64,000 nucleotides of DNA from Phoenix dactylifera (lineage: Eukaryota > Streptophyta > Magnoliopsida > Arecales > Arecaceae), in NCBI RefSeq assembly GCF_009389715.1, contig NW_024068005.1:124001-188000 (forward strand), in the 5' to 3' direction. Position 1 is the first letter of the stretch. The number at the start of each line of letters is the position of its first letter. The notes beneath the pieces are model-generated. The model searched no databases. It had not been told where the DNA came from and worked only from the letters and a program-made list of their open reading frames with translations. The translations under genes and the position numbers were made by a program. This document shows positions 5,236 to 58,628 of this stretch, piece by piece.

Positions 5236-6498
5236 ATGGATTCCGCAAACAGCGGCAGCATCCAGTCCTCCAGCGGCGGCGACGAGGAGTACGACTCCCG
5301 TGCCGACTCCATCTCCGCCCTCTTCTACCCCACCTCCTCCTCGTCCTCCGCCGCCGCCGCCGCCGCAGCTGCCGCCTCCCTCCCACCTCCTCCCCCTTCC
5401 TCCTCCTCCTCCTCGTCCCACCACCCTAACCCCTCCTCCTTCTTCGACTCCTTCTCCTTCCTCGACTCCTCCCCTCTCCTCCCCCTCGACTCCTCCTCCT
5501 CCCCCTGGCCTCCACGCCCCCTCCGCCCCTCCCCCGTTCCCACCCCCGACTTCCCCCATCTCAACTCCTCCCTTCCTCGCGGTCCACCAATCGTTCAATC
5601 TTCGGTGCAGCAGCCGCCCGAGAATTCCACCGCCATCGCCGCACCGCCGCGGAGCTCCAAGAAGCGCTCCCGCGCCTCGCGCCGTGCCCCGACCACCGTC
5701 CTCACCACCGACACCTCCAACTTCCGTGCCATGGTCCAAGAATTCACCGGCATCCCGTCCCCTCCCTTCGGCGCCGCCGCCTCCCCCTTCTCCCGCTCCC
5801 GCTTCGATCTCTTCCATTCCTCCTCCTCGCCCTCCTCCCTTGCCCCTCCTTACCTCCTCCGCCCTTTCCCCCAGAAACCCCCCGCCTTAGCTTCTCCCAA
5901 CCCTTCATCATCTGCTACCACCATTACTGCTATAATCGATGCTCTTGCTTCTACTACTAATACCATTTCTAATGCCAAGGCCAGCGCTACCATTCCCATA
6001 ACTAGCGCTCCTGCTAGTATGGCTAATTCTACTCCAACTAATAATAACTACCAACTGCCTTCGCCTGATCCTGGCCTTGCCAGCCAAAACCAGTCTCTCT
6101 TCAACCTTCAAAGCCAAGGCCCCGTCATCAACTTCCAATCCCTCCTCACCCAGAAGTACACTCTCCCCACCGCGTCACCGGCCTTCGCCACGAGGCCGCA
6201 GGCCGTTATTCCATCGCCGGAGTTCGGTTCGAGAGAGCTTGGACTCCCGCCGGGGCTTATCAGGTCGGAGGGCGTGCAGTCGGGCTGGGCTGGTGCGTCG
6301 GGGCCGGATGGCGGTGAGCAAGCTCGACTGAGGCCGGTGGTCGGAGGGAACGATAATGGCGCGCAGCAAAGGGTGAGCAGCTGCAAGTTCAACTACTCTG
6401 GGCCAGGTTCGTCGGAGCTCAATGGGGAGAAGGGGTCGGAGGGCGTGGCGGCGCGGGGCGAGGGTATGGTGGACTCGTGGATTTGTTCTTCTGATTAG
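5236..6498 (+). CDS. VQ-motif protein, nuclear WRKY cofactor (JAV1/VQ22-like)
   Basis: Intronless 420-residue protein with the VQ motif FRAMVQEFTG at residues 163-172, matching the family pattern FxxxVQxxTG. VQ proteins are plant nuclear cofactors that bind WRKY transcription factors through this motif and tune defence and jasmonate responses. A basic KKRSRASRR stretch (residues 142-150) immediately before the motif looks like a nuclear localisation signal. The N-terminal 130 residues are low complexity (Ser, Ala and Pro runs) and the tail ends DSWICSSD. The block around the motif and the tail recall the subgroup containing Arabidopsis JAV1/VQ22, but that assignment is from memory and tentative. 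The start is the first in-frame ATG after a pyrimidine-rich leader. A W-box lies about 460 bp upstream, consistent with WRKY feedback. The first half is extremely C-rich, the second half more balanced. Long frames on the other strand and other phases are shadows of the Pro/Ser repeats. Confidence 0.9.
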   Translation: MDSANSGSIQSSSGGDEEYDSRADSISALFYPTSSSSSAAAAAAAAASLPPPPPSSSSSSSHHPNPSSFFDSFSFLDSSPLLPLDSSSSPWPPRPLRPSPVPTPDFPHLNSSLPRGPPIVQSSVQQPPENSTAIAAPPRSSKKRSRASRRAPTTVLTTDTSNFRAMVQEFTGIPSPPFGAAASPFSRSRFDLFHSSSSPSSLAPPYLLRPFPQKPPALASPNPSSSATTITAIIDALASTTNTISNAKASATIPITSAPASMANSTPTNNNYQLPSPDPGLASQNQSLFNLQSQGPVINFQSLLTQKYTLPTASPAFATRPQAVIPSPEFGSRELGLPPGLIRSEGVQSGWAGASGPDGGEQARLRPVVGGNDNGAQQRVSSCKFNYSGPGSSELNGEKGSEGVAARGEGMVDSWICSSD

Positions 6499-20642: not shown

Positions 20643-21032
20643 TTTTTTTTTTTTTTTTTTTTTGCTGGGAAAAAAGGGGAAGAGGGGAGAAAGAGACAAG
20701 CCCACCCCGCGTAGCAGCCCCCACTGGGGCCTCCACCCCACCAGGAGAATGTTCAATGCAGGCAGAAATGACCGTGTGTTGGACACCCCGACCGGTTTTA
20801 CTCATACTCTCCCCACCCGTGGGCCGGCTCGGTTATCCGACCCGATCCTCCATGTGAGTACGTCACACCTGACACCACACAGGCTATCAACCGACCAGTA
20901 GCGCTTTCAGACCCCGTGTCCAGGCGTGGGGTATCCGGTCCCCAAATTTAATCGACGCCCGCGCGTTTCAAACCTGAAACCACTTGGTTGGAAGTAAACG
21001 CCTTGTTCCAACTGGGCTACCACCTTGGTGGC
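20643..21032 (-). mobile_element. SINE (tRNA-derived), minus strand
   Basis: The reverse complement gives a tRNA-like head (left-to-right: CCAAGGTGGTAGCCCAGTTG at the 5' end, then GGTTTCAGG in place of the B box), a shared body and a terminal A run seen here as T residues (20643-20663). TACTGCAC at 20633-20640 and 21033-21040, extending imperfectly into a following T-rich stretch, is the target-site duplication. It belongs to the same family as 8285-8608 and 48860-49279. Confidence 0.85.
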
Positions 21033-21040
21033 TACTGCAC

Positions 21041-22376: not shown

Positions 22377-23243
22377 TGTTGCTGGAAATTGGACCCGGGG
22401 GCAATCGTCGGTCGAGGAGGGGGAGCGGCGGTGTAGCGGCTGTCCGTCGGCGGGCGGCGTCCTCCGTCGGGGTGCCTGCAAAAAAGCCGGTGGCCGGATC
22501 TTCCAGCGCCGGCCCTCCGATGCTTAAGTCAGAGGGGGGCAATTAGTACCAAAAGGAGGAAGAATGCAGTGTATTTTGAGTTTTCAGTGTCCAACCCCCC
22601 CTCTGAGAAGAGAAGGTTCCCTTTTATAAGGGGGGTCGGCGTACCTGTGATGTGATAGGGCGAGGCCGTTTGTACGACTCGGCACGTTGCTTGGACTGGC
22701 GAACGGTTGGGCGAATCATTGCATTAATGTCGAAAATGAGGCCGTCGTACGATCCGAGCCGGCACGCGATCGGGCGAATTATTGCGTTGGTGTCGGAGGT
22801 GAGGCCGAGATCAGAGACAACACGGTTGATTGGACCCCGCTGGGCTGATCTGCCGTGGAGAGTCATGGGTCCGTAGACAACAGGAGCCACGCGCATTAAT
22901 TGTTGAGTAAGCCGGAGGTGCGCATTAATTGTTGAGTAGGCCGGAGGTGCGCATTAATTGTTGAGTAGGCCGGAGACTTTCATTAAGTGTTGAGTGAACC
23001 GGGGGTTTGCAGAGATCATGCGTAATAAATGCTGGGGCAGTGGCAGGGTATGGCCCTTGGCCAGACCTCTGAGGGGTACGGCCGTAGTAGGTGGTTGACG
23101 AGGACAAACCTTTGAGGTCGGGAATTCTCCGGGTCGGAGGCTCTGAGGTCGGACGCCGACCTCAGTCGTCCGGGGTCGGCGGTCATGCGGCCTTCCAGTG
23201 GCGGGGTTACTGCATTACCGGGGAAAACTGTATTACCCCAACA
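22377..23243 (-). repeat. 3' LTR of the Tat element (867 bp)
   Basis: Runs from TGTTGCTGG to CCCCAACA on the plus strand. Against the other LTR it has about nine substitutions, an 11-bp extra block (GTGTAGCGGCT, a short duplication, around 22430) and a 2-bp gap near 22533. A minus-strand TATA box (TATAAAAG) lies at 22621-22628. Four 29-bp subrepeats, the last degenerate, occupy 22891-23006. Confidence 0.95.
22891..23006. repeat. 29-bp tandem subrepeats inside the LTR (x4)
   Basis: Units begin GCGCATTAATTGTTGAGTA at 22891, 22920 and 22949. A degenerate fourth unit begins at 22978. The same array is in the other LTR at about 34355-34470. Given the minus orientation, it sits in the U3 part of the LTR upstream of the TATA box, where such repeats often act as enhancer-like modules. 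Confidence 0.85.
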
Positions 23244-23259
23244 CTACCCCCCGACTTCC
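23244..23259 (-). other. Polypurine tract (second-strand primer)
   Basis: The minus-strand sequence GGAAGTCGGGGGGTAG directly abuts the start of the 3' LTR, the position required for plus-strand DNA priming in reverse transcription. Confidence 0.8.
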
Positions 23260-23599
23260 GAGTCCGAGCGGCTTGCGAGCTCGGACGCGGGAAGTAGAAG
23301 TCGTCCTTGTGGTTATTGAGGTCGGAGGGGATCGCGCCCGCATCCTTGCGTGTCTTGGAGCCTTTATGACGGAGTTTGCGCCCTTTGGCACTTCGTGGTC
23401 GCTTTTAGATGGCGAACTTATAACGGGGTCTGCGCCCTTACGCATCCCGAAGCAGCTACAACGGGGATAGTGCCCTTTGGATCTCCGAGGTCGCTTCGTA
23501 CGGCGAACTCATGATGAGGGTCCCTGGGCCCGATGAGGTGGCGCCTCGATCTCGTGGTCGGGGCTCCCCCCTTAACTAGGTACGTCGTTTCGTGCCTCA

Positions 23600-23940
23600 A
23601 AAATGAATACGTGGCACGATCCGAGGTCGGACGTTTCTGATCTCGTATTGGTTGGACAATGATCTGGGAGGGCGGAGGTTAGATCGACGCTCCACGTGTC
23701 CCTGAGGCCTATTAAATGGGGGGAGCGGGGGTGGCGTTCGCTCGTCTTTCGAGATGGTCCGGTTTTGCGAACCCATGATGAGGCCGTGGGATCCGATGGG
23801 ACGACGCTTCGATTTTGTACTCGACTTATTGCTCTGGATTGAATGCGGTGCTTCGGCTTCTGAGGCCGACACGTGGCGCAATCCAGACGGGGGGTGGGAA
23901 CCGAGCCCACCGATCTGGGCCGTTAGGGGGGTCTATATAA
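23600..23940 (+). promoter_or_regulatory. Promoter of the antisense gene
   Basis: A TATATAA box at 23934-23940 lies about 90 bp before the first plausible ATG (24031) on the plus strand, opposite to the retrotransposon's own transcription. Upstream are ACGTG motifs at 23609-23615 (ACGTGGC), 23693-23698 (CACGTG) and 23870-23875 (CACGTG). The first and third sit in similar contexts (ACGTGGCACGATCC and ACGTGGCGCAATCC), suggesting a duplicated module. ACGTG cores are bound by plant bZIP and bHLH factors. Activity is inferred, not shown. Confidence 0.6.
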
Positions 23941-24030
23941 ACCCCACGAATCTGCCCTAAAAATTCCGTTTGGTTGCCTTTCGTCTTTGCCGTCTTCTCC
24001 TTTGCTCCCCCTCTCAACCCAGTCTTGCCG

Positions 24031-26239
24031 ATGGCGCCCAGAGCGATTTCCGGCGACTTTCCCGTAGGTTTCCTCCCTGTACCAGCTAGGGTTCCTCTTC
24101 CTCCTCTTCACTCTCTTTTTCTCTAGCTTATTTCACTTTTCTGTAAGATGGGTTCTGGTCCGGAGGAAGTAGGGTCGAGTTTGTCGGGGGAGGAGTTGGA
24201 GTTGATCCGCTCCCGGTTCTTCTTCCAGCCCGGGTTTCGTCTTGAAACCGCGGGGCCGGAGGACAGGGTGACGCGGCCGCCCCCAGGTCGGATCGCGGTC
24301 TATCGCGAGACGCTCTGGGCCGGCCTGCGATTTCCTGTTCACGAGTTCGTGAACAGCTTGCTGGTAGAGTACCAACTCGTTCCAGCACAGCTTGCTCCGA
24401 ACTCGTGGAGGACCATAATTGGGTTTTTGTCCTTGTGTCTTGGGCACGGGATCCCGATCTCGGTGAGTGTCTTCCGCCGGTGTTTTTTGTTAAAGAAAAA
24501 CCCGGCGGATGCGGGGTGGCTATACTTTGCCTTTCGGGGCGGTATGTCGCTCTTCCAGGGTGCCCCTTCCTCTATTCATGAGTGGAAGGAGAAATTTTTT
24601 TTTCTTGCATCCGAGGTGCCATGGGGGTTTAACCCGAGGTGGGGGCACCCCCGATTGAAGACTCTCAATAGGCTCTCCGAGCCCTCGGAGAGGGAGCTGA
24701 GGGTCTTGGACTCTCTACGGGCCCTCGGAAAAGGATTCAACCTGACCGAGCTCCTACGGGAGGACGTCTTGGCGAGCGTGGGCTTGAGCTCGGCGCGTCC
24801 TGAGGGTAAGAGTGGTCGCATCACTTTGCTTTTGTCTGTTTTCTCTTTTCGCTAACTTTGATCTGACACCCGGAAAAACTTTTGGTTTCAGATATTCCCC
24901 GCACACGTCCCTCTTCTCTCGGATAAAGAGGCGAGAGGCCGAGGCCGGGGAGGCTATTCCCCAGCCTCGGAAGAAATCGAGGTCGGCCGGTGCTTCTACA
25001 TCGGCCGGGACGGGAGGCCCGGAGGCGGGGGCCTCCACAGTTTGCCAGGGGCGTACGCGGGACGCCGGCGACACGGGCCCAACGGCCCCTCTCTGTCCCG
25101 CTCCTGTCGCCCAGCAGGGGAGGCCGACCCCCATTCATTTACGGCGCCCGGGATCTGCGCCGACCAGAGGCCCCGAGGTCCCCAGCTCGGACGAGCCGAG
25201 TTCTTCAAGGGCCCACAGGGAGGAGTCGGCCAAGCCAGGATCCCCACTCCTTGAGGGGAGTTCGGCCATCCATGACGCCGAGGTCGCAAGGGCCGTGTTT
25301 CGGCGTGCAATGCTTCCAGCGGACCGGGCCGAGTTCGCGAACTTGCCGCTGGAAGAGATCGTCGACGGTACCTACCGTAATACCGCTCGGATAAGCTACT
25401 TTCCTAATTTTCCTTAGGCTATTGGCGAACATGTTGTATGTTTTTCAACTCATAAGTGCTTTCCCCTTTTTCCCTTACAGCACATTCATGAAGTTGACAC
25501 CCTGGTGTTCATTGCCCAAGGGTGTCAAGAGGAGACTCGGCGGGTCAGCTGGCAATTGGAGCCGGCTAAGAAAAGAATCGCCGAGTTGGAGGCGGCGCTG
25601 GCCGAGGCCGAAGCGCGGAGGGAGGCCACTGAGGCCGGGCGACTAGCCATGGTCGAGGTGCTCGAGGAGGAAAGGGCCGCCCATTCGCTGACCAAGTCGG
25701 CCCTGCGCGCCTCCGAGACGCGACTGGGGGAGGCCCAGTCCGAGATCGCCGGCCTCAAGTACGAGGCTGGGGTCTTCCGCCTCAAGATCGGACAACTTGA
25801 GGCATGGGAGAAGAAGGCGCTCGAGCGAGCCGAGAACGCCGTGGAGCTCTTCAAGGAGTCGGAGGAGTTCCTCGAAATGTTAGAGGAGGAAACCGTGGAT
25901 GGGTTCCTCCGGGGCTTTGATAACTTCCGAAAGCAGATGGCCCGGATCTGCCCCCAGTTCGACCTTTCGATGATCCGTCCGAGGATGAAGCTGGGGTACG
26001 GCTCCGACTCTGACGACGTTCCCGCCGCCCTTATGTCCGACGAAGATCTCGCCGAGGCCGAAGCCGAGGCGGCCGAGCCGGCGGTGGCGGAGGCCCTCCC
26101 TCGCGAAACCAGCGAGGACGTTCCCGCGGTGCCAACCGAGGCCCCCGCCGCCGACCCCGAGCCCGTACCCGTCGAAGGCCCCCAGGTTATCGCCGTGGAC
26201 GACCCCGAGGGTGACGCTGACGCTGCTGCCGCCTCTTAG
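24031..26239 (+). CDS. Antisense ORF of the Tat element (putative gypsy-type transposon protein with coiled coil), probably spliced
   Basis: On the opposite strand to gag-pol, between the repeat array and the 3' LTR. Exon 24148-24805 encodes the conserved globular part (motifs such as NSLLVEYQL, PNSWRTI, GWLYF), which I recognise as the plant putative gypsy-type transposon domain (Pfam Transposase_28 type). An exon in 24892-25417 encodes a Pro/Arg/Ser-rich linker. The exon at 25481-26239 encodes a long Glu/Ala-rich coiled coil and an acidic Ala/Pro tail. Likely splice sites are GGGTAAGAG at 24805, TTTCAG at 24891 and CCCTTACAG at 25480. A short leader exon, 24031-24063, could join at 24148. 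With the best GT-AG sites the frame does not pass cleanly through the middle exon, so either the real sites differ or the gene has decayed. Its function in Tat elements is unknown. Confidence 0.65.
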
Positions 26240-27312: not shown

Positions 27313-28255
27313 CGAGGTCGAGGGAGTCTGGGACTCTACGGTCGATCCTCGGGGCATCCAGGTCGATGGGTCTGGGAACGCTCTGTCGACCTGCGACGTT
27401 TTTCGAGGTCGAGGGAGTTTGGGACTCTACGGTCGACCCTCGGGGCATCCCGACCTTAGTCGAGGAATCGTGCGCCAGGTCGAGGAGTCTGGGAACGCTC
27501 TGTCGACCTGCAACGCTTTCCGAGGTCGAGGGAGTTTGGGACTCAACGGTCGACCCTCGGGGCATCCCGACCTTAGTCGAGGAACCATGCGTCAGGTCGA
27601 TGCTCTGTCGTCCTGCGATACTTCCCGAGGTCGAGGGAGTTTGGGACTCTACGGTCGAACCTCGGGGCATCCCGATCTTAGTCGAGGAATCGTGCGCCAG
27701 GTTGAGGGGTCTGGGAACGCTCTGTCGACCTGTGACGCTTCCCGAGGTCGAGGGAGTTTGGGACTCTACGGTCGACCCTCGGGGCATCCCGACCTTAGTC
27801 GAGGAATCGTGCGCCAGGTCGAGAGGTCTGGAAACGCTCTGTCGACCTGCGACGCTTCCCGAGGTCGAGGAAGTTTGAGACTCTACGGTCGACCCTCGGG
27901 GCATCCCGATCTTAGTCGAGGAACCATGCGTCAGGTCGATGCTCTGTCGTCCTACGATACTTCCCGAGGTCGAGGGAGTTTGGGACTCTACGGTCGAACC
28001 TCAGGGCATCCCGATCTTAGTCGAGGAATCGTGCGCCAGGTCGAGGGTTCGGGGAACGCTCTGTCGACCTGCGATGCTTCCCGAGGTCGAGGAAGTTTGG
28101 GACTCTACGGTCGACCCTCGGGGCATCCCGATCTTAGTCGAGGAATCATGCGTCAGGTCGATGCTCTGTCGTCCTGCGTTACTTTCCGAGGTCGAGGGAG
28201 TTTGGGACTCTACGGTCGAACCTCGGGGCATCCCGATCTTAGTCGAGAAATCTGA
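27313..28255. repeat. Higher-order tandem repeat array, 117-bp and 105-bp units
   Basis: Units start with CGAGGTCGAGG at 27404, 27521, 27626, 27743, 27860, 27965, 28082 and 28187, giving lengths 117, 105, 117, 117, 105, 117 and 105, preceded by a shortened 91-bp unit at 27313 and followed by a partial unit. The 105-bp type lacks GAGTCTGGGAAC and differs at diagnostic sites, so units are A-B-A-A-B-A-B. It lies between integrase and the antisense gene, the hypervariable region known to seed satellites in Tat/Ogre elements. Both periods are multiples of three, which is why several long frames on both strands stay open. These are not genes. Confidence 0.95.
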
Positions 28256-28366: not shown

Positions 28367-29845
28367 TCATTGGTAATACATCCGTAGATTCTCGGAGTTC
28401 CAGCTTCGTGGAATTGGAGTCCCTTCGAGAGATCTCAACTTGTATGCCCCGGGTCGTTGTACTCGGGCAATTTGATATGGACCTTCCCAGTTTGGGGCGA
28501 GCTTTCCCCGCTCAGTTGGCTGAGAAGCTTCGGCTCTCCTGAGGACGAGGTCCCCCACTTTGAAGAGCTTGGGCTTGACTCTGGAGTTGTAGTATTGGGC
28601 CGTCTTCTATTGGTACCTTGCCATGTGGACCCGGGCGACCTCTCGTGTCTCTTCAACGAGATCCAGATTATTTCTGAGTCGGAAAGAGTTGGAGTCGGGG
28701 TCATAGTGCTCCACCCTTGAAGAAGGGAGGCCGACTTCCAGCGGGATGACAGCCTCTGTGCCATATGCTAGGTTGAAAGGGGTCTCTCCTGTGGGTAATC
28801 GGAACGTAGTCCGGTATGCCCAGAGGACGTTGTACAAGTCCTCGACCCACAGTCCTTTGGATCGATCAAGCCTAGCCTTGAGTCCATGCAAAATGGTACG
28901 ATTTGTTACCTCAGTTTCTCCGTTTGTCTGGGGATGGGCGACCGAGGTGAAGCGGTGGTCTATGCCGAGCTCGGAGCAAAATTCTCTGAAGTAGACGTTA
29001 TCGAACTGCCGACCGTTGTCAGATATAAGGATCCGGGGAAGTCCGAATCTGCAGATTATGGACTTCCATACGAAGTCCCGCATCTTTTGCTCGGTGATCC
29101 GGGCTACGAGTTCAGCTTCAACCCATTTGGTGAAGTAGTCGATGGAGACGACCAGAAATTTTTTTTGCCCGGTGGCCAGAGGAAAGGGCCCCAAAATGTC
29201 GATCCCCCACTGGGCAAACGGCCAGGGGGCGATGATCGAAGTTAGCAGGGCCGAAGGTCGGCGTTGGATGTTGGCGTTCCGTTGGCACCGGTCGCACCTC
29301 CGAACGAAGTCCACTGCGTCCTTCTGGAGCGTGGGCCAGTAATATCCTTGCCGCAAGATCTTATAGGCTAACGCCCGACCTCCCAGGTGATTTCCGCAAA
29401 TTTCTTCATGGACTTCTCGGAGTGCATAGTCCGCCTCAGAGGGGCGGAGACATCTAAGAAGAGGAGAAGTGAATGATTGACGATAGAGCTTGTTTTCATA
29501 TAGGACATACCGGGAGGCTTGGCGCTTGATCCGGCGAGCTTCTATCTCATCATGGGGGAGGGTTCCGTCCTGGAGATAGCGGACGAACCCGTCGATCCAG
29601 CTCGGCTCGAAGTCGATACACATGGTAGGCTCAGGTTCCTCCATGCTAGGTGTCTGAAGATACTCGAGCGTCGTCTCCTTGGAAAGCTCGCTCATGCGGG
29701 AGGTCGCCAGTTTGGACAACTGGTCTGCCCTGAGATTCTCCGGCCTGAAAATATTCTGGATGCCGAAAGAGCCCAAGGCCGCCGTAAGTTTCCGCACTTT
29801 TTGGAGATATTTTTGCATTGATGGCTCTTTTGCTTCAAAGTCTCC
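28367..29845 (-). pseudogene. Integrase (Tat element), broken
   Basis: Catalyses insertion of element cDNA into the genome. A zinc-binding HHCC region (with NHLGGR and CDRCQ) at roughly 29450-29330 is followed by the DDE core: D in GIDILGPF, D in ISDNGRQFDN and E in NGETEVTNR, with 35 residues between the last two (DD35E). The C-terminal part includes GPYQIARV and ends at the stop at 28367. A TAG at 28607-28609 interrupts the C-terminal domain. The start is joined to RNase H only across a single-base deletion near 29842-29845. Confidence 0.9.
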
Positions 29846-31773
29846 CTGATTTGGCTTACTATCAGCTGGGAATCGCTGAAGGCCCTCAGGTCTTCCACTT
29901 TCAGTTCCTTCGCCAATTTGAGCCCAGCAATGAGCGCCTCATATTCTGCTTCGTTGTTTGAGGCCGGAAACTCGAGGCGTAAGGCTTGTTCGGCCACCAC
30001 TCCGTCTGGGCTGGTAAGGATGAGTCCAGCTCCGCTACCCCCCGAAGTTGAGGACCCGTCTGAATACAGGACCCATGGTAGCCTCGGGGTTGTCTCCATA
30101 GGTGCAGACGATAGCTCGGGGTCGTCTGGCAAGGTGCACTCCACGAGGAAGTCGGCGAGTATTTGAGCTTTAATGGCCGGCCTGGGCCGATATTCGAGGT
30201 CGAACTCCCCGAGCTCGACCGCCCACTTGGCGATCCTTTCCGCACGATCCGACCTTTGCAATATTTGCTTCATAGGCTGGTCGGTCAGTATGACTATTGT
30301 ATGTGCTTGAAAGTAAGGCCGGAGTCTCCACGCCGAGATGACAAGGGCGAAAATTGTCTTCTCCAGTTTGGAATACCGGGTCTCAGCATCCCTGAGGACC
30401 CGGCTGATGTAGTAGACCGGCTTTTGGAGCTTGTCCTCTTTCCGGACCAGGACCGAGCTCACTGCAACCGGGGAGATGGCCAGGTATAAATAAAGAACTT
30501 CGCCCCGCTGAGGCTTGGTGAGTAGCGGGGGAGAGGCCAGGAGGCGCCTGAGCTCTTCAAAGGCCTGCTGGCATTCTTCTGACCACAGGAAGTCCTTTGG
30601 CCGCTTAAGGATCTTGAAGAATGGGAGGCAGCGCTCAGCCGATCGGGAGACAAATCTCCCCAGGGCGGCAACTCGTCCGGTGAGCCGCTGCACTTCTTTG
30701 ACTGTCTTTGGAGGCGCCATCTCTTGCAGCGCTCGGATTTTCTCGGGGTTGGCTTCAATCCCACGCTGGGTCACTATGAAACCCAGGAACTTGCCCGAGG
30801 TAACTCCGAACGCGCACTTTGCTGGGTTGAGCTTCATCCGGTACCTCCTGAGCTTGGAGAATGTTTCGTTGAGGTCGGCTACATGGTGCTCCGCCGCTCG
30901 GCTCTTTACCAACATGTCATCCACGTAGACTTCCATGTTTCGGCCGATCTGGTCCTCAAAAATTTGGCTGACCAGCCTCTGATACGTGGCCCCAGCATTC
31001 TTCAGACCGAAAGGCATCACCTTGTAGCAGTAGGTGCCTTTGTCGGTAATGAAGGCCGTCTTCTCCTCGTCTTCCGGCGCCATCCGGATCTGATTATATC
31101 CGGAAAAGGCGTCCATGAATGTCAGCAATTGATGTCCTGAGGTGGAGTCGACGAGTTGGTCGATGCTTGGAAGGAGGAAACTGTCTTTCGGGCAAGCCTT
31201 ATTCAGGTCGGTGTAGTCCACGCACATGCGCCATTTCCCGTTGGCCTTCTTCACAAGGACTACGTTGGCAAGCCAGTCTGGGTAGGAGACCTCCCGGATG
31301 AAGCCAGCTTCGAGGAGTTTGTCCACTTCCTCGGTTGCGGCTCGTTGTCGTTCTGGAGCGGAGCCTCTCTTTTTCTGCTTCACGGGCCTGCTGGTCGGCT
31401 TTACTTGGAGTCGATGGGTCATGACCTCGAGGTCAATTCCTGGTATGTCGGTGGACGACCAGGCGAAGACATCAGCATTGTTCCGTAGGAAGCCGATGAG
31501 GTGGTCCCTTTCGCGGACGCCAAGGCCGGAGCCGACCTGCACGGTTAGCTCGGAAAAATTTTCTCGTAGAGGAACTTGAATGAGGAGCTCACCAGGCTTT
31601 ACTTGCTTCTTCCAGAGGTCGTCCCTTGCGTCCAGGGTTTCCATGGGTAGCGAGGGGCCCGTCGCCTGAGGCGGCGCTTCAGTTGGTCGTTTCGCTCTGT
31701 GAGCCGCCATGTAACATTGCTTGGCGACCAGCTGGTCCCCGCGGGCCTCGCCTACTCCTTGGCCGGTGGGGAA
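29692..31773 (-). pseudogene. Reverse transcriptase, RNase H and second RNase H (Tat element)
   Basis: Counting from the ATG at 31710: reverse transcriptase at residues about 130-320, with the catalytic YVDD at 262-265 preceded by MPFGLKNAGATYQR. The gypsy-type RNase H is at about 400-520. A second, archaeal-type RNase H begins at LYSDGSS (D551), continues with NNEAEYEAL and ends with FSDSQL (D613). The dual RNase H arrangement is typical of the Tat lineage. The frame is the same as gag and protease, separated from them only by a TGA at 31774-31776. It goes out of frame after residue 622 through loss of about one base, so integrase continues in another phase. Confidence 0.93.
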
Positions 31774-32136
31774 TCACATGAGTAGATGGCGGGTCGAGAC
31801 CACGGCTCGGAGGGCATTTAGCCCTGGCCGCCCAAGGATGGCGTTGTAGGCTGAGCCTAGACGGACTACAAGGAAGTCCGTCCTCACGGTGCTTTCCTGG
31901 GGAGTGAGGCTGACTGTAATAAGAAAGCTGACCTCACCCTCAACTGGGACCGAATCTCCGGTGAACCCGACTAATGGGGTATTAATTTTTCGGAGGTGTC
32001 CTTTTGGCAATCCCATTTTTTGGTAGGCATGGTAATACAAAGCATTGGCCGAGCTCCCATTATCAACTAAGACACGCTTTACATCAAACTTATTTACAAT
32101 CATGGAGATGACCACGGCATCATCATGAGGGGTCTC
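31774..32136 (-). pseudogene. Aspartic protease (Tat element)
   Basis: Retropepsin-like domain with the active-site motif VLVDNGSSAN (DNG codons at 32056-32064, in the place of the more usual DTG/DSG) and the later AILGRPGLN motif. It would cleave the gag-pol polyprotein. The domain is intact but is followed by a TGA at 31774-31776 before reverse transcriptase. Confidence 0.88.
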
Positions 32137-33816
32137 AACCCCTTCCAAGTCCTCGTCCGAGAACGAGATGGCTTCGGAAGCGCGTGGGCGCTTCGGGGGA
32201 GCTTCATGGGCTGGCCCTCCAGCGGAAGTCCCTCCTCTAATGACATTGATGGTGCCGGCAACGGGTCTGTTGTCATTTGGATTCTTGGGGGGCGTGGTGT
32301 TTTCTGCTGGCCTCCTCTCTTCACGTCGGTTCCATATGAACCGATTGAGCACCCCGCGGCGAATAAGCGCCTCGATCTCGTCTCGGAGCTGAATACAGTC
32401 CTCCGTGTCGTGCCCATGATCCCGATGGAAGCGACAGTACTTCCTGGGATTACGCGGAAATCCCGTATCCCGCATGGGAGGTGGAGGTCGGAAAAAGTCC
32501 TGGCCTTCAATCTCCATTAAAATCTCGGCCCGGGGCGCATTGATAGGTGTGTAATTTTCGTACCTCCCTGGGTACGCCCGAGGCCGTGGTGGAGACCTTG
32601 GTCGAGGTGAGGTCCTCCGTTGTGGCTGTCCCCGCTACCGAGGTGGGCTCCTCAGTCGGAGGAGGTTCTTCTCCTGACGGGGGGATCGGGTTCCTCGTCG
32701 GCCGCGCTCCTCGCGGCGTTTCTTCTGCTTCCTTGAGGCGGGCTCGATTGCACCCCGCCTGGAGGCAATTGCCTCTTCGGCCTTGGCGTACTTCCGAGCT
32801 CGGGCCAGCATCTCGGTGAAGTCGGCCAGGAAGCTCTTCTCGATGGAGAAGAGGAATCGATAAGAGCGGGCCTCAGTCTTTAGAGCCGACATGGCTATTG
32901 ACTGGTCCAGCTCACGGACTTTCCACGTGGCGGTGGTAAAGCGGTCTAGGTACTCCTTGAGGGATTCCCCCTCTTTCTGCTTGATATTCAGGAGGGAGTC
33001 CGACGTCCGCCTTAGGCGTCGGCTGGCGGCAAAATTGGTAGCAAATTGCCTGCTGAGTTGCTCGAAGGAAGATACCGTGCTCGGTTTTAGCCCAGAAAAT
33101 CAGAGTCGAGCTGTCCCTCGAAGAGTCGCCGGGAAGGCCTTGCAAAGTACGGCCTCCGAGGATCCTTGTAGGGCCATGAGAGCCCGGTAGCTCTCCAAGT
33201 GGTCGAGGGGGTCGGTGACTCCACTGTAGGGCTCCACATGAGGCATCTTGAACCTCACGGGGACTGGCTCATCCTCGATTTGGCGGGAGAAGGGGGACTC
33301 GGTGGTAAATTCGAAATCCCCCTCTTGTCTTGCCTTCTTGCTGCGGAGCGCTTCGATCTGGCGCTCCAAGTGCTCGACTTTCCTGTCGAGCTCCCCAACC
33401 CGAGGAATCGTCGCCGTGGTTTGCCCTGGCTCACGGTGGCCTGGGGCTGACTCGGCTTCAGAGGGTTGGGGTCTTCCGTTCAGACCTTCCCCCGGCAGCT
33501 CTCTTTGGGGGGAGGCCCGCCCTTCGTTGTTGGCCCTGGAGGAGCCGTGGAGATTCTGGCCTAGGAGAATCGGGCCGTTGGGAGAAAACTCCGGCAGGAC
33601 CTGGGCCTGCGGGGGATGTGTTGGTAAGGCCTCCTCGCGCCGCAGGCCTTGAACGGCGGCGGCCAGGGCCTGAACTTGCTGCACCAAAGCATTGAATTGC
33701 TCCGGCTGAACCTAGGGAACCGGGTCAGCCGGAATAGGTGGATTCTGGACGGAGTGTCCAGGACTCTGTGGGGGACGCCGGGAGGCATTGGAGGCTCCCT
33801 TATTTCTCAACTTCAT
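32137..33816 (-). pseudogene. Gag (Tat element), broken by three stop codons
   Basis: Structural nucleocapsid protein of the retrotransposon particle. I place the start at the ATG at 33816, only 33 nt from the LTR, because the same frame runs from there through protease and reverse transcriptase. The capsid-like core lies around 33300-32900 (PYSGVTDPLDHLESY). A variant zinc knuckle with Cys-His-His-Cys spacing (CRFHRDHGHDTEDC) is at 32395-32436. In-frame stops are TAG at 33712-33714, TGA at 33100-33102 and TAG at 32635-32637. Each could come from one C-to-T change on one strand. Confidence 0.88.
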
Positions 33817-33831
33817 GATCGCGACTCGGGC

Positions 33832-33847
33832 CCTTCCTCTAGCGCCA
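33832..33847 (-). other. Primer-binding site of the Tat element
   Basis: Two bases inside the 5' LTR the minus strand reads TGGCGCTAGAGGAAGG. It begins with TGG as needed to pair with a tRNA CCA end. I cannot name the tRNA with confidence. The older element at 50-53 kb has the related TGGCACTAAAGGAAAGG in the same place. Confidence 0.75.
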
Positions 33848-33849
33848 AC

Positions 33850-34707
33850 TGTTGCTGGAAATTGGACCCGGGGGCAATCGTCGGTCAAGGAGGGGGAGCG
33901 GCTGTCCGTCGGCGGGCGGCGTCCTCCGTCGGGGTGCCTGCAAAAAAGCCGGTGGCCGGGTCTTCCGGCGCCGGCCCTCCGATGCTTAAGTCAGAGAGGG
34001 GGGCAATTAGTGCCAAAAGGAGGAAGAAGGCAGTGTATTTTGAGTTTTCAGTGTCCAACCCCCCCTCTGAGAAGCGAAGGTTCCCTTTTATAAGAGGGGT
34101 CGGCGTACCTGTGATGTGATAGGGCGAGGCCGTTTGTACGACTCGGCACGTTGCTTGGACTGGCGAACGGTTGGGCGAATCATTGCATTAATGTCGAAAA
34201 TGAGGCCGTCGTACGACCCGAGCCGGCACGCGATCGGGCGAATTATTGCGTTGGTGTCGGAGGTGAGGCCGAGATCAGAGACAACACGGTTGATTGGACC
34301 CCGCTGGGCTGATCTGCCGTGGAGAGTCATGGGTCCGTAGACAACAGGAGCCACGCGCATTAATTGTTGAGTAAGCCGGAGGTGCGCATTAATTGTTGAG
34401 TAGGCCGGAGGTGCGCATTAATTGTTGAGTAGGCCGGAGACTTTCATTAAGTGTTGAGTGAACCGGGGGTTTGCAGAGATCATGCGTAATAAATGCTGGG
34501 GCAGTGGCAGGGTATGGCCCTTGGCCAGACCTCTGAGGGGTACGGCCGTAGTAGGTGGTTGACGAGGACAAACCTTTGAGGTCGGGAATTCTCCGGGTCG
34601 GAGGCTCTGAGGTCGGACGCCGACCTCAGTCGTCCGGGGTCGGCGGTCATGCGGCCTTCCAGTGGCGGGGTTACTGCATTACCGGGGAAAACTGTATTCC
34701 CCCAACA
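33850..34707 (-). repeat. 5' LTR of the Tat element (858 bp)
   Basis: Same boundaries as the other copy (TGTTGCTGG to CCCCAACA on the plus strand). A minus-strand TATA box (TATAAAAG) at 34085-34092 would start genomic RNA about 200 bp before the end of the LTR. Confidence 0.95.
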
Positions 34708-38050: not shown

Positions 38051-38623
38051 AATATGATCCTCAATGTATGATATCCTAATTAGGCGAACCGGACTTTAAC
38101 CATGTGTTTCTTCACGGTTAAGAGAGCCAATCCAACGTTGCAAAACATAGCGCCTACGTGCCACGTACGAGGAATTAGCCGAGGTGGTGGTTGGCTACGT
38201 ACCGAGAAATTATATCAGTATTGGGCGGGCTGGGGATGGGAGTTTAGCGAATACCTTCTTCTTAATTACACACTCAGCACAATTAAGTACACTGTACACC
38301 TTATCCCATCTCCGTACCTCCGACTTTATCTGCCACAATTCTCAACTCACCTACCGACCCACGATCTTCGCCAATCAACACCGCCCAATGACCGGCCCCA
38401 CCATTCTCCTTCCCTTTTTGAACCTCACAACTGTCAGGTCCGTTTCCAGGTCCCAGATCCGAACCCCACAAGTCTCTTTAGACGTAGGAATATTCCACCA
38501 AGGCAGGGACATATCCGCTTCCTCGATCCTGGATCCCGTGTGACGGCTCAACATTCCCATTTCTCTCCTTGCAGTGTTTCTCTTTGGATCAATCGAGAGA
38601 GGAGAAAGAGGGGAGAGGAGGGG

Positions 38624-41600
38624 ATGGGGTCGACGGGGGTGCAGCGCCGGACGCTGGTGCTGGTGAACCTCGCCGGAATCATGGAGAGGGCCGACGAGGC
38701 GCTCCTGCCGGCGGTCTACAAGGAGGTGGGGGCGGCGCTGCACGCCACCCCTACGGGGCTGGGCTCCCTCACCCTCCTCCGGTCCGTCGTCCAGGCCGCT
38801 TGCTACCCCCTCGCCATCTACATGGCCGTCCGCTACGACAGGACCCACATCATAGCGCTCGGCGCCTTCCTCTGGGCCGCTGCCACCTTCCTTGTCGCCC
38901 TCTCCGACACCTTCCTCCAGGTTTGGAACCCCACAAAGCTGCAATCTTTGCCGCTTTTCTGTTTGCCTTTTTGATGGGTTTGGTTTGAATCGAGGCGGGC
39001 GGGATGCGGGTTTTGCGGATTTGAGCAAAAGTTTCGATTTTTAGCGGGAAAGATTGAATCTTAGATTGGTTTATTAGGTTAATTATTTATATTTGTGATA
39101 CTTAGGGAGTGTTTTGATGGGGTTGAGCGTTAACTGTTTGGGATATTCTGTGGAACCGAATAGGGTTTTTTGTTGTTGTAGGGCTCATATAAATTCGTAA
39201 GACTTGGCTTCTGTTTTGTTGTTGTAGACAAAAACCCTTAACTTGTGAGTTGAACTATTGCCATTTGTGAAAATAGTGTTTGGATCAACTGTTGTTTAGA
39301 AGAGCATGACTAACGGGTTTCTTGGCCTCTTTTGAAACATGATTGATTTGGTTCTGAGATTTCTGTTTTACTTCAAGTAATTGGTATTAATTGTGCCATC
39401 AATGATCAAATAAGGCATTACCTGCTGCACCTTCTTGGACTACTTGCCAAACTAATTTTCCCATCTGCTAGGTGATTCATAACTTGGCTGCTTTCCAATG
39501 GCGGAAACCATGTCAATAACCATCAAGACTTGTCCCAATTATTGGGGGTTTCATTTTTTGCGGAATCCGTATCTATCACTCTTTTCTTGCTGAGGGCTTC
39601 CTGACTAGGAAACACCCAACAAAATTGTTTGCTTGGTGGATTTGTTGAATCTTTGATGCTGTCTGAATGTTTGTATATTCTAAAGTCTAGTTTCTCTTCT
39701 TTACTCTAGAAATCTTTGATATGTCTACTTTCTTTTGTTGCTCTCTTGTTGCTTAAATCCTTAATTTGCTCCATTTATGAAGCAACCTAATGTTTTAAAT
39801 GCTTCTTGAAAGCAGAACGAACCCAAAAAAAAAGCCTCGATATGCACATAATATGATATAATTTACGTATATTTCATACTATGGTTGTTATGCAGGTAGC
39901 AATCTCAAGAGCCTTGAATGGGATTGGGCTAGCCCTAGTGGCCCCGGCTATCCAGTCCGTTGTAGCTGACTCCACTGATGACAGCACACGTGGTTCGGCT
40001 TTTGGATGGCTACAACTGACTGGTAATGTTGGTTCCATCATTGGTGGCTTCTTCTCACTACTACTGGCATCAACTTCGTTTATGGGAATTGCGGGTTGGA
40101 GAGTTGCTTTCCATCTGGTCGGCATAATAAGCATCATTGTAGGAATCTTGGTCCGACTCTTTGCGGTGGATCCTCATTTTCATAATGATAGTTCAAGTAA
40201 CGAAGCGATTTCACGCAAGTCTGTTTGGACAGAAGCCAAGGACCTTGTTAATGAAGCCAAAGCTGTTATGAAGATTCCATCATTTCAGATTATCGTGGCG
40301 CAGGGGATCACTGGTTCATTTCCATGGTCTTCTCTTTCGTTTGCACCCATGTGGCTGGAGCTTATTGGATTCTCGCATGGCGTAACTGGATTCCTCATGG
40401 GCATTTTCGTGGTTGCAAATTCTCTAGGAGGACTATTTGGAGGAAAGATGGGGGATATTTTAGCCAAGCGTTTCCCAAATTCTGGCAGGATAGTTATGTC
40501 CCAGATAAGCTCCAGCTCTGCCATTCCTCTTGCAGCTCTATTGATGTTGGTCTTACCTGATGACCCCTCCACAGGACTTGTGTATGGCCTTGTCTTGTTC
40601 GTCATGGGATTTAGCATATCTTGGAACGCTCCAGCTACAAACAAGTAAGTTATTGTGATTCTGTTCTCCCAAATCTTGATATATGGCTAGCAGAATTAGT
40701 AAGATCATGACAGAATTGTACCATGAACATGGGAACAATGAGCTCATTAAAAAAGCTAATCTCATTTGATGCTGCCATGAACTTTAGATAATGGCTAAAA
40801 CCATTGGACCACTGATAGTAAATAGGAATGGAACCCTTGTGTGGTTCTTCACATATATACGTATAATCTCGACATGGAACCATAATCATTGATTTCCCTT
40901 TTAACAAATAATTATTTTCTTCCATGCTATTTTCAGCAAAAGAATGGAGTCATCTTGTGAAGAACTCTCTTTCGAAAATAAACTCAATCATAATACTATA
41001 ATATTTCAAGGTCCTTTTTCTTCAATGGCAAAAGAAACCTTTCAAAGCATTCTCTTTCAGAATAAACTTTCTTTTACCATGCTATGGCACCTTCTATTCA
41101 TTTTGGTAATTTCTCTCTCTGTGGTGCACACAGTCCTATATTTGCAGAGATTGTCCCAGAGAAATCAAGGACAAGCATCTATGCTTTGGATAAATCCTTT
41201 GAGTCTGTACTATCATCGTTCGCTCCTCCTCTTGTTGGCATTTTAGCTGAGCATCTTTATGGGTACAAACCAATTTCTTATGGAGCAGGTGAGAATACCA
41301 CTGTTGAGACAGATAGAGAGAATGCTGCCTCCCTTGCCAAGGCACTCTACACAGCAATAGCAATTCCCATGTCACTCTGTTGCTTCATCTACTCCTTCCT
41401 GTACCACACCTATCCCAGAGATAGAGAAAGGGCAAGGATGGATTCCTTGATAGAATCAGAATTGCAGCAGATAGAATTGGAGAATGCTTGTGAAGTGGGA
41501 CGTGATTCTGGAAGCCAACATTCTGAATTGCAGTTGAATGGAAGCGAAAGAAGCGTGATTGATTTGGCTTATGGAGAGGAAGACTTTGAGACTGATGACA

Positions 41601-41656
41601 ATGATGAGAGGACACTGCTTTCTTGGCAAGTGGAAGTATCAAATGGGAGGGATTAG
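38624..41656 (+). CDS. MFS transporter, copy 1 (three exons)
   Basis: Exons 38624-38920, 39896-40644 and 41134-41656 join in frame to 522 codons plus stop, with phase 0 then phase 2 introns and GT-AG borders. The product is a plasma- or endomembrane carrier of the major facilitator superfamily. It starts with RRTLVLVNLAGIMERADEAL, includes SRALNGIGLALVAPAIQS and GSAFGWLQLTGNVGSIIGG as typical early helices, and has a hydrophilic loop (about residues 180-210) between the two six-helix halves. The acidic cytosolic tail is about 100 residues. It resembles plant MFS proteins of the Arabidopsis UNE2/At4g36790 group, related to spinster-like carriers. The substrate is not known from sequence. The frame is open upstream of 38624, but that part has leader character and the GC-rich ATG matches the start of copy 2. 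Exon 1 is far more GC-rich than the rest. Confidence 0.9.
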
Positions 41657-43755: not shown

Positions 43756-43910
43756 TCTTTTGTCACAGAGGAGTCCACGGAAGGGTAGGGAATTAATTTC
43801 CCGATATTTTTTCCCGCGGTCCGGAGGTCAACCTCGAATCCAATGATCCTTCTCTCCGCTGCCTTCTCTCTAGATCGATTCGAAGGGAGGTCAAGGAGCA
43901 GAGATTGGGG

Positions 43911-46900
43911 ATGGGGGAGGAGCGGCGGACGCTGGTGCTGGTGAACCTCGCCGGAATCATGGAGAGGGCCGACGAGGCGCTCCTGCCGGCAGTCTACAAG
44001 GAGGTCGGGGCGGCGCTTCACGCCTCCCCGACGGGGCTGGGTTCCCTCACCCTCCTCCGGTCCATCGTCCAGGCCGCTTGCTACCCCCTCGCCACCTACA
44101 TGGCCGTCCGCTACAACCGGACCCACGTCATAGCTCTCGGCGCCTTCCTCTGGGCCGCTGCCACCTTCCTCGTCGCCCTCTCCAACACTTTTCTCCAGGT
44201 CCGCGATTCCATAAAGTCGGCCTTTTTATTACTCTTCGCGTGTTGTTTTATTGGGTTTCGGTTTATTTTCGCTTCTTTTTTTGGATTTTGAGCTGAATCT
44301 AACTGGATTAGGTTTGTGTTTGTAGATCTGAGAAATTGGAGCTTATTCTCAGCTTAAAAATTGAAACTTGATCGACTTTTCGGGTTTTATTGTGTGTGTC
44401 TTTTTTCCGGTGTTTTAGCAAGGTCTGAGATCGAGTGGTGAGTTATTGGGATTTTTGGTTGGAAGCTTTTGATGAGTTTACAATGTTTCAGTTGCTGCCG
44501 GAGATTTTGGAGAAGACGCACAGTTATTAATGAGTGGAGTTTGACTTCTGGACTGCTGAAATTTCTGTCTAAGACTCAGCTTCCGTTTGTTGTTTAAAGA
44601 CACAAACTCCTTTTCCGGTGACTTTGACCACTGCTATTTGAGAAATAAAACATCTACATTACTTGGGTTTAGAAGATCTTTCTTCTTTTTGTTACTTATG
44701 GGGTAGGAGTTTGGAGAAGCATGCTCTTCGGGTCACCTTCAAAACATGGTTGAATTGGTTTTCTACATGTTTGTCTAGATTTCAGCAAATAAATGACTTA
44801 ACATCGTACCATTAAATGGAGCTTCACTTGCTTTTGATTGTAAGGCAGCTACTGAACTAATCTCTTTATCTGGCATTTCATTTTTAACGCCTGTTGTGTC
44901 CCATGAATGATTTGTTATGGTCCTGTTTCTTAATCTAGGAGTGGCCTAAGTAAATTTACCTCTAATGTACTTCTTCTTGACCATGCTCATTTAATGAAGC
45001 AATCTAATGCTTTAACTGTTTATGATTTCTCTGGTTTTGAATCTGTAGTAATATCCGGTCTCTCTGGAGACATCCAATAAAATTGGAAATTGTACTAAGA
45101 TCTGATACATAATTCTTATAGTTGATAGGATCTTTGTTGTGCAGGTAGCAATCTCAAGAGCCTTGAATGGTATTGGACTAGCCCTGGTGGTACCAGCCAT
45201 CCAGTCCCTTGTAGCTGACTCTACTGATAACAGCACTCGTGGTATTGCTTTCGGATGGCTACAACTCACTGGTAATATTGGTTCCATCATGGGCAACTTC
45301 TTCGCTCTCCTGCTAGCATCGACGTCGATCATGGGAATTGCTGGTTGGAGAATTGCTTTCCATCTAGTCGCTGCAATAAGTGTAGTTGTAGGAATCTTGG
45401 TCCGGCTATTTGCCGTAGACCCGCATTTCTCCTCCAATGTTATCTCCAGCGATGACCTTATTTCGCGCAAGTCTGTGTGGGCAGAAGTGAAGGACCTCAT
45501 CAAAGAAGCCAAAGCTGTTATGAGAATCCCATCATTTCAGATTATAGTGGCTCAAGGTGTCACTGGATCATTCCCATGGTCAGCGCTGTCGTTCGCACCC
45601 TTGTGGCTGGAGCTCATTGGATTCTCGCATGAAGGAACTGGATTACTCATGACATTGTTCTCGGTCGCAACGTCCCTTGGAGGACTGTTTGGAGGAAAGA
45701 TGGGGGATTTTCTCGCCAGACACTTTCCAGACTCCGGTAGGATAGTTCTATCGCAGATAAGCTCTGCCTCTTTCATTCCACTTGCAGCTGTGCTGTTGTT
45801 GGTCTTACCTGATGACCCTTCCACGGGACTTGCCCATGCCATTGTCTTGTTCATCATGGGATTGAGCGTCTCTTGGAATGCTCCTGCTACAAACAAGTAT
45901 GTTACTTATTTTATTTCTAATCTTCCATGTCTTACTGCATGCTTTCCTTCCTAAATTTATAACAAAATTAGTAGATCAGAACAGAATTGTGCCAAGGATA
46001 TAGTGACATGATGATCGGGCTGAAACAGTAAATACCATTTGATTCAGACATGAATCATATAGAATGTTTCAAAGTGCCAAACCACTGATAGAGATCAGAA
46101 ATAGCACACATTTTGTGGTCTCTCACTGATATACAAAATTCGAACTCTTCACTAACAATGATTTCCTTTTTTAACAGTCAGTTCCTTTTTCCCCATACAA
46201 CTTTCAGCAAGTATGGCCAAACCATAACTATTTCTATCACCAGATGAACCCGCTCATAGATCATGCTTTTCAAAAATTATCTGTAAGGTCTTCTTGAACG
46301 GGATAAACCTTCATCGACAGTACATAGTTACTATTAGCTTCATTGCCAATCTTTTGTTCTTTAAAAGAATAAAGAAGGGATGAGACCGCACAAATTCCCA
46401 AGCATTACTAATATGTAAGCTGGGCATGGCTCTGTTGCTAAATTTTTGCAACATCGTTGTCAGTCTATTTCCATGACTCCTAGAATGTTATAATTTTCTA
46501 ATTATCAGGGTAATATTAGCATTGTTTCGGTACTAGCTGCTCTTTATCTTATTGTTTTGTTTATGGTGCAAACAGTCCTATATTTGCAGAGATTGTCCCT
46601 GAGAGATCAAGAACCAGTATCTATGCTTTGGATAGATCTTTTGAGTCCGTACTTGCTTCATTTGCTCCTCCAGTTGTTGGCTTGTTAGCTGAGCACGTTT
46701 ATGGCTACAAACCAGTTTCCGATGGATCAGGTGAGGGTGCTGCTGTCGAGACAGACAGAGAGAATGCTACTTCCCTAGCCAAAGCACTTTACATTGCAAT
46801 GGCGATTCCAATGTCGCTTTGTTGCTCCATCTACTCCTTTCTATACTGCACCTATCCTAGAGACAGGGAGAGGGCACGAATGGAATCTCTGATAGCATCA

Positions 46901-47098
46901 GAATTGCAGCATATAGAGTTGGAAAATCCTCCGAGAGCAGGAGATTATTCTGAGATCCGACTTTCTGAACCAGCTTTGTATAAAAACAAACCGGTCGTGA
47001 TTGATATGGTTTATGGAGAGGAAAATTTTGAGACTGGCGAGGATGATGGGAGGAAATTGCTATCTGATGAGGTGGTGTTATCGGATGCAAGGGGTTAG
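43911..47098 (+). CDS. MFS transporter, copy 2 (three exons)
   Basis: Exons 43911-44198, 45145-45896 and 46576-47098 join to 520 codons plus stop. Intron phases and splice borders are the same as in copy 1 (exon 1 ends CTCCAG, exon 2 starts GTAGCAATCTCAAGAGC, exon 3 starts TCCTATATTTGCAGAG). The proteins align end to end. Differences concentrate in the N-terminal few residues, the central loop and the acidic tail. It is a 12-helix MFS carrier of unknown substrate, arising by tandem duplication with copy 1 about 5.3 kb upstream in the same orientation. The start codon ATGGGGGAGGAG follows a short purine-rich leader. No disabling change is visible, so both copies look functional. Confidence 0.9.
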
Positions 47099-48840: not shown

Positions 48841-48859
48841 AACTAGGTAATGTTGTAGC

Positions 48860-49247
48860 CGCCAAGGCGGTAGCTCAGTTGGAACGGAGCTCGGCTTCTA
48901 ACCAAGTGGTTCCAGGTTCGAAACGCGCGGGCGTCGATTAAATGTGGGGACCGGATGCCCCTAGCCTGGACACGGGGTCTAGAAGTGCTACTGGTCGGCT
49001 GGTAGCCTTGGTGGTGCCAGGTGTGACGTACTCACACGTGGTTCTCGAGCCGGAGCCCAGAGGGGTAACCGAGCCGGGGTCACGGGTGGGGAGGGTATGA
49101 GTAATATATGGCTGGGGTCTGGTGCGCTGGGCCTATACCAAACGGCCATTCTGCCCGAATCGAACATAGTCCTGGCGGGGGCGGGGCCCGGTTGGGGTTG
49201 CTACGCGGGGTGGGCTTGTCCCTCCCCCCCTACCTCCTTTTTGGTTT

Positions 49248-49279
<32 letters not shown>
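48860..49279 (+). mobile_element. SINE (tRNA-derived), intact, with 19-bp target-site duplication
   Basis: The duplication AACTAGGTAATGTTGTAGC is perfect at 48841-48859 and 49280-49298. The head has pol III promoter boxes: A box TAGCTCAGTTGG (48871-48882) and B box GGTTCGAAAC (48915-48924). A unique body of about 320 bp follows, then a tail of about 30 A from 49251. This is the best preserved of three family members in the window and probably the youngest. It is mobilised by LINE reverse transcriptase; it codes for no protein. Confidence 0.95.
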
Positions 49280-58336: not shown

Positions 58337-58383
<47 letters not shown>

Positions 58384-58566
58384 ATGTATGTATGGATGTA
58401 TATACATATATGAATATGTATATATATGTGCATATGTGTATATATATAAGGCACATATACATGGTACTACCTAGCATGAAGTCAGTTGAATAAGCTTAAT
58501 CAATCAATTGAAAAATAAATGATACAATGATTTTGCATACTTAGTTTTTTGTGTAAGTTTTCTAGG

Positions 58567-58628
<62 letters not shown>

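Follow-up and report, generated by a model that had tools for sequence, protein, structure and literature searches.

Antisense TRP28 gene of a probable Retand-type retrotransposon in Phoenix dactylifera: a decayed copy and the predicted architecture of its relatives

Introduction

According to Vicient 2025 (PMC11963269), antisense TRP28 genes occur in all but 2 of the Retand clusters analysed (97%), these being recently active ones. Their role is still puzzling. The 64,000-nt stretch of date palm DNA examined here, called the window, contains a Ty3/gypsy element in which the segment from pol to the 3' LTR carries an antisense gene (plus strand). The question raised by this locus is what such a gene encodes and what its product may do. 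The gene is real and belongs to an already published kind; a sequence-only reading of the window had recognised it but missed both the decay of this copy and the lineage-wide, published status of antisense TRP28 genes. With a probability of roughly 0.6, we read it as a decayed TRP28 gene (aORF-3R/eORF-3'R) of a Retand-type element, the intact copies of which encode a nuclear, oligomeric regulator of their own element. What makes it interesting is the unexplained role of the family together with a predicted fold that is unmatched in the libraries searched, rather than any uniqueness of the locus.

The host element

On the minus strand, the element extends from 34707 to 22377 and measures 12,331 bp (ca. 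12.3 kb; Table 1). The two LTRs both start with TGTTG and finish with CAACA, and are 97.6% identical (BLAST), with a K2P distance of 0.0106 over 856 aligned sites (6 transitions, 3 transversions and 13 gap columns). A TGG is found 2 nt internal to the 5' LTR, on the primer-binding side. No target site duplication of 4-5 bp was seen, the flanks CTGAT and GTTAA being different. Each LTR also harbors a 29-bp unit repeated 2.9 times (22891-22975 and 34355-34439).

The RT-RNase H and integrase ORFs of pol lie in different frames. A second RNase H (RVT_3, E 1.3e-10; RNase_H at aa 547-637) follows RT_RNaseH (aa 407-503), and pol thus possesses the additional RNase H (aRH) that defines the Tat clade. 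The domain order RT, RH, second RNase H and then integrase agrees with Retand and Ogre elements, in which aRH is located between RH and integrase (Neumann 2019, PMC6317226). As expected for Retand, an antisense Transposase_28 ORF lies between pol and the 3' LTR (PF04195 in 24148-24855, plus strand, with pol on the minus strand). The region from pol to the 3' LTR is 5,363 bp (ca. 5.4 kb), within the range of 2,933-6,566 bp given by Vicient 2025 (PMC11963269), where tandem arrays in 32 representative elements are described as well. Domain order, antisense TRP28, length of the pol-3' LTR region and tandem array together fit an assignment to the Tat/Retand lineage.

No gag or protease Pfam match was obtained between the 5' LTR and pol. 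The main frame of the region assigned to gag and protease has single stops in four of its first seven 300-nt blocks, one of which could be a natural gag-pol boundary. Ogre elements carry an extra ORF upstream of gag; here the distance from the 5' LTR to the RT ORF is about 2.1 kb, which leaves little room for such an ORF, the gag start being unfixed by Pfam.

Elsewhere in the window, two tandem major-facilitator transporter genes (38102-41656 and 43910-47098; MFS_1 in ORFs 39881-40648 and 45139-45954) are 80-93% identical in three matched pieces, and the element lies ca. 3 kb upstream of the first. A gene for a VQ-motif protein occupies 5236-6498 on the plus strand (PF05678, E 7.9e-13). A diverged direct repeat is present at 57692-59758 (75% identity across 683 alignment columns and 77% across 283), and an inverted pair at 20643-21035 and 48855-49271 (78.5% identical over 424 columns) is probably a dispersed repeat beside the element.

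Table 1. Coordinates of the antisense gene, its putative promoter and the host element in the window
Feature	Positions	Strand	Basis or remark
ABRE-core-like motif 1	23609..23615	+	ACGTGGC
ABRE-core-like motif 2	23694..23700	+	ACGTGTC
ABRE-core-like motif 3	23871..23877	+	ACGTGGC; context common with motif 1
TATA-box candidate	23934..23941	+	TATATAAA; 214 nt ahead of the start codon
Upstream ORF	24031..24126	+	31 codons; after the TATA box, ahead of the main start codon
Exon 1	24148..24805	+	TRP28 (PF04195) globular domain; start codon common to relatives (MGxGP...); Pfam, 8 relatives at 60-89% identity, AF2
Intron 1	24806..24891	+	GT...AG; sequence; P0020 and P0030 cross the equivalent join
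Exon 2	24892..25390	+	NLS-like KRREAEAGEAIPQPRKK and low-complexity linker; relative P0017; frame broken relative to exon 1 near 5' end
Intron 2	25391..25480	+	acceptor present, canonical donor absent; junction from P0011, P0014, P0017
Exon 3	25481..26239	+	coiled coil, conserved SEEF...DLS helical block, low-complexity tail ending VIAVDDPEGD (SIM-like)
3' LTR	22377..23243	-	867 bp; exact ends TGTTG...CAACA
Polypurine-tract candidate	23244..23267	-	purine-rich stretch adjoining 3' LTR
Tandem array	27313..28252	.	117-bp units, higher-order periods 222/339; adjoins the integrase end of pol, on the side of the antisense gene
pol, integrase ORF	28607..29818	-	H2C2 and rve; Pfam
pol, RT, RNase H and additional RNase H	29692..31710	-	RVT_3 at aa 551-637; Pfam
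gag/protease region	31774..33848	-	assigned by position alone
5' LTR	33850..34707	-	858 bp; minus-strand TATA-like site at 34087

The antisense reading frame

The three longest stop-free stretches on the plus strand between 23944 and 26300 are 273, 242 and 209 codons long, and lengths of the same rank were reached in 3.1%, 0.2% and 0% of 1000 dinucleotide shuffles, respectively. The longest of these says little by itself because the minus strand of the same interval holds an open stretch of 236 (followed by 147 and 135). The plus-strand reading frame exceeds chance. The PF04195 match, the pol domains, the LTR layout and the literature support the earlier reading of it as an accessory gene antisense to a Tat-lineage element. 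Within the window there is no second copy of the antisense region at E 1e-3 and no Rfam family at gathering score; a search for DNA copies in viral contigs gave seven pattern matches, none of which was confirmed.

Splicing and decay of the window copy

The sequence-only reading had called the introns plausible. This holds for the GT...AG borders of intron 1, for the acceptor of intron 2 and for the joins, which are crossed by relatives; it fails for the frame of exon 2 and for the donor of intron 2. In the date-palm models P0020 and P0030 a GLSS..PQ motif runs directly into the linker, consistent with the junction of exons 1 and 2, and in P0011, P0014 and P0017 the sequence GTYRNT(A/V)R is joined directly to HIHEVDTL or HIHKVDTL, which marks the junction of exons 2 and 3. 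Gene models vary, P0012, P0016 and P0018 having another exon 2 arrangement ahead of the exon 3 junction.

In the window copy, splicing of intron 1 would enter exon 2 out of frame and meet a stop soon after, as read by eye. The frame used by the relatives runs in parallel, and the break therefore amounts to a length difference close to the 5' end of exon 2. The junction with intron 2 has no canonical donor. Relatives in which these parts are intact do exist. With these two parts broken, and with RT and integrase in different frames, the window copy yields no full product; it is an ordinary decayed member of its family. The survival of plus-strand introns in the element suggests that the RNA that was reverse transcribed was of the opposite strand.

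TRP28 domain, predicted fold and protein architecture

The globular domain proposed for the first part of the protein proved to be Transposase_28 (PF04195; 54.4 bits, E 1.4e-14, with a Pfam gathering cut-off of 26.2 bits), and of the 31 proteins aligned for exon 1, the window copy included, 27 match this family at E values up to 5. Structure prediction, which had been suggested as a check, gave a confident AF2 model of the exon 1 product (pLDDT 88.9, pTM 0.88), in which the predicted TRP28 fold covers about 200 residues, compared with the 69 modelled by Pfam. A fold search with this model returned no match in PDB or viral libraries and hence no DNA-binding relative from them. For the coiled coil, also part of the earlier description, the strongest hydrophobic period is 3.5 residues and the next 3.1.

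An NLS-like linker was recognised in P0016, P0017, P0018, P0020, P0026 and the window copy, and the order of parts is the same in the palm protein P0020 and the Aegilops protein P0026. Judged by their sequences, the relatives are predicted to have the NLS-like linker, the coiled coil and the conserved helical block in common. The SIM-like tail was seen only in close palm relatives, P0010 being one that has it, and does not occur in P0020. Predicted features that are new here are the TRP28 fold, the architecture of the relatives, the SUMO-interacting-like tail and the abscisic acid-core motifs described below; among the open-literature matches listed, no paper deals with fold, SUMO or ABRE aspects of TRP28.

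Two other affiliations were considered and rejected. Kinship with two accessory domains that Neumann 2019 (PMC6317226) names for sister lineages, PF10536 (plant mobile domain) and PF03078 (Athila ORF-1), received no support from sequence, neither being among the 22 Pfam families that match the 31 members at E values up to 5, where HMMER filters drop most matches above ca. 0.1 and a remote TRP28 relation could escape. The NCBI label 'tropomyosin' and the families PF13851 and PF02090 reflect coiled-coil resemblance; both Pfam matches stay under their cut-offs in the window protein, and PF13851 reaches E 1.4e-6 in one relative.

Relatives and substitution pattern

Protein searches yielded 8 relatives of exon 1, 11 of exon 3 and 36 from an eight-sequence exon-1 alignment, 47 distinct proteins altogether. 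Seven of the 11 exon 3 relatives have a source name, in each case Phoenix dactylifera. P0009, P0011, P0012 and P0014 are 74-81% identical to exon 3 over the whole query; the values are 60% over 100% for P0016, 88% over 64% for P0017 and 61% over 94% for P0018.

Substitutions were compared with 300 neutral simulations per comparison at equal amino-acid identity, a weaker stand-in for dN/dS. For exon 1, no more than 5% of the simulations matched or surpassed the mean BLOSUM score for 8 of 10 relatives (P0001 and P0008 missed this level with 25/300 and 41/300), and for all 10 relatives no more than 5% had losses of W, G, P, F, Y and C as small as those observed. Because of common ancestry the comparisons are not independent, and the relatives, being database ORFs, were open by the way in which they were found. 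With exon 3, the BLOSUM test was passed by 6 of 10 relatives (P0017, the eleventh, was left out) and the W/G/P/F/Y/C test by none; in P0015, P0016 and P0018 these losses equalled or exceeded those in at least 94% of the simulations. The non-random substitutions support selection without proving it, with exon 1 offering the stronger case of the two.

These patterns bear on the possibility that the gene is a functionless relic in recent elements, its ORFs being carried along by replication and the date-palm models being automatic annotations of transposon remnants. The broken window copy and the mixed exon 3 comparisons would suit such an origin, as would NCBI names like 'tropomyosin-1-like', which resemble automatic labels, and the heterogeneity of eORF proteins, described by Neumann 2019 (PMC6317226) as highly divergent and of questioned function. 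We nevertheless consider it very unlikely, given the conservative substitution pattern of exon 1 and the presence of TRP28 in nearly all of the recently active Retand clusters analysed by Vicient 2025 (PMC11963269).

The exon 1 data also weigh on a role for the antisense RNA itself, in which plus-strand RNA, spliced or not, would pair with genomic RNA and the resulting dsRNA or small RNAs would limit the element or aid host silencing, the protein being secondary. From the layout, an antisense transcript would be complementary to genomic RNA over its whole length, introns aside, and Ty1 antisense RNA silences Ty1 in yeast (PMC12786077); for plant elements, dsRNA and protein roles have both been proposed already (PMC7264820). 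A pure RNA role, however, predicts neither conservative antisense-frame substitutions in most exon 1 comparisons, nor relatives that keep the start codon, the splice joins and the 200-residue fold, nor TRP28 in 97% of clusters (PMC11963269), and we regard it as fairly improbable.

A candidate promoter

Upstream of the start codon, the TATATAA box noted earlier is present as TATATAAA, as are the three ACGTG motifs. The duplicated context claimed for two of them was also recovered, the first and third having ACGTGGCrCrATCC in common (12 of 14 letters). Because of these common surrounding letters, both sites may stem from one duplication. All three extend to ACGTG[GT]C, which we take to be the core of abscisic acid response elements. 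Among 2000 dinucleotide shuffles of the 350-bp region 23586-23935, which ends inside the TATA box, none contained two or more ACGTG[GT]C, a longer motif picked after the sites had been seen, whereas three ACGTG occurred in 0.6% and TATATAA in 0.1%. The plus strand of the 64-kb window has seven ACGTG[GT]C matches, three of which lie within 269 bp here; the minus strand has six, one of them overlapping the third site.

The upstream motifs thus appear to fit an abscisic acid-response core. Taken together with the precedent of maize Grande, they make an own internal promoter plausible for the antisense gene.

Proposed role

In working copies, the internal promoter, represented here by the TATA box and the three ABRE-like motifs, would drive a plus-strand mRNA with two introns. 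Its product would be a nuclear protein that starts with the TRP28 domain at its N-terminus, continues with a basic NLS-like linker and a coiled coil serving oligomerisation, and has a conserved helical block in its C-terminal part, followed by a disordered, acidic tail. For TRP28, DNA binding has been predicted by Vicient 2025 (PMC11963269), and may apply here as well. The protein would regulate its own element in the nucleus, via transcription or RNA fate.

Overlap of sense and antisense RNA could add a further layer. The sequence-only reading had the two transcripts merely converging at 26-28 kb; this needs correction, since by the layout genomic RNA must reach the 3' LTR and therefore overlaps the entire antisense gene.

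The same protein features would also suit a chromatin tether. The NLS-like linker, coiled coil and SIM-like tail are compatible with a function in the particle or during integration, such as that of a factor for nuclear import or tethering of the preintegration complex, and PMC7264820 discusses a role in nuclear translocation. However, an own promoter on the other strand better fits a separately timed regulator than a particle component, and a function of this type seems unlikely to us.

More specifically, the nuclear regulator that we favor might be a stress-inducible, ABRE-driven coiled-coil protein in which TRP28 is a hitherto unseen nucleic-acid-binding fold of ca. 200 residues and the tail recruits SUMO-linked chromatin factors to set element activity, which would make it a convergent plant counterpart of the deltaretroviral antisense regulators. 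This elaborated version is speculative, and we hold it to be quite improbable. For the family as a whole, a confidently predicted, unmatched fold and a common layout make an old puzzle testable with respect to DNA binding, oligomerisation and element control.

Comparison with known systems

The closest known counterparts are the antisense TRP28 genes of Retand elements described in PMC11963269, which correspond to the present gene in position between pol and the 3' LTR, antisense orientation, TRP28 domain, tandem array and long pol-3' LTR region. The orders named in the accessible text of that paper do not include Arecales. Described here in addition to that work are the exon structure, the prediction of the whole-domain fold, the NLS-like linker, the C-terminal block and the ABRE-like cluster, in a copy that is decayed. 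Considering eORFs with a minimum of 250 codons, Neumann 2019 (PMC6317226) found Transposase_28 in 23% of the Retand elements, and circular DNA of blackgrass is reported to be rich in PF04195 (PMC10606437).

Similar to the present gene, gene23 of maize Grande (Gomez-Orte 2013, via PMC7264820) is an antisense gene in the 3' internal region. An own promoter and a nuclear protein are reported for gene23 (Vicient and Casacuberta 2020, PMC7264820), whereas here both are suggested by sequence motifs. Antisense Grande transcripts are unmentioned in the accessible part of the maize EST paper of Vicient 2010 (PMC3091746), which is apparently cited by PMC7264820. ORF4 of the Silene Retand element (Kejnovsky 2006, via PMC7264820) is likewise antisense, contains Transposase_28 and belongs to an element with tandem repeats; it stems from another host and family, and is likened to the date palm gene by its description in PMC7264820.

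In logic, not in ancestry, the proposed regulator would be comparable to the antisense proteins of deltaretroviruses. HBZ and APH-2 are nuclear proteins encoded on the antisense strand and proposed to act as regulators. Both are named in PMC11963269, and the antisense gene product is likened to them with no claim of homology. No bZIP family is among the Pfam matches listed for the antisense protein and its relatives. The position of the promoter differs too: in HTLV the antisense promoter is located within the 3' LTR (PMC7264820), whereas the candidate described here is internal to the element.
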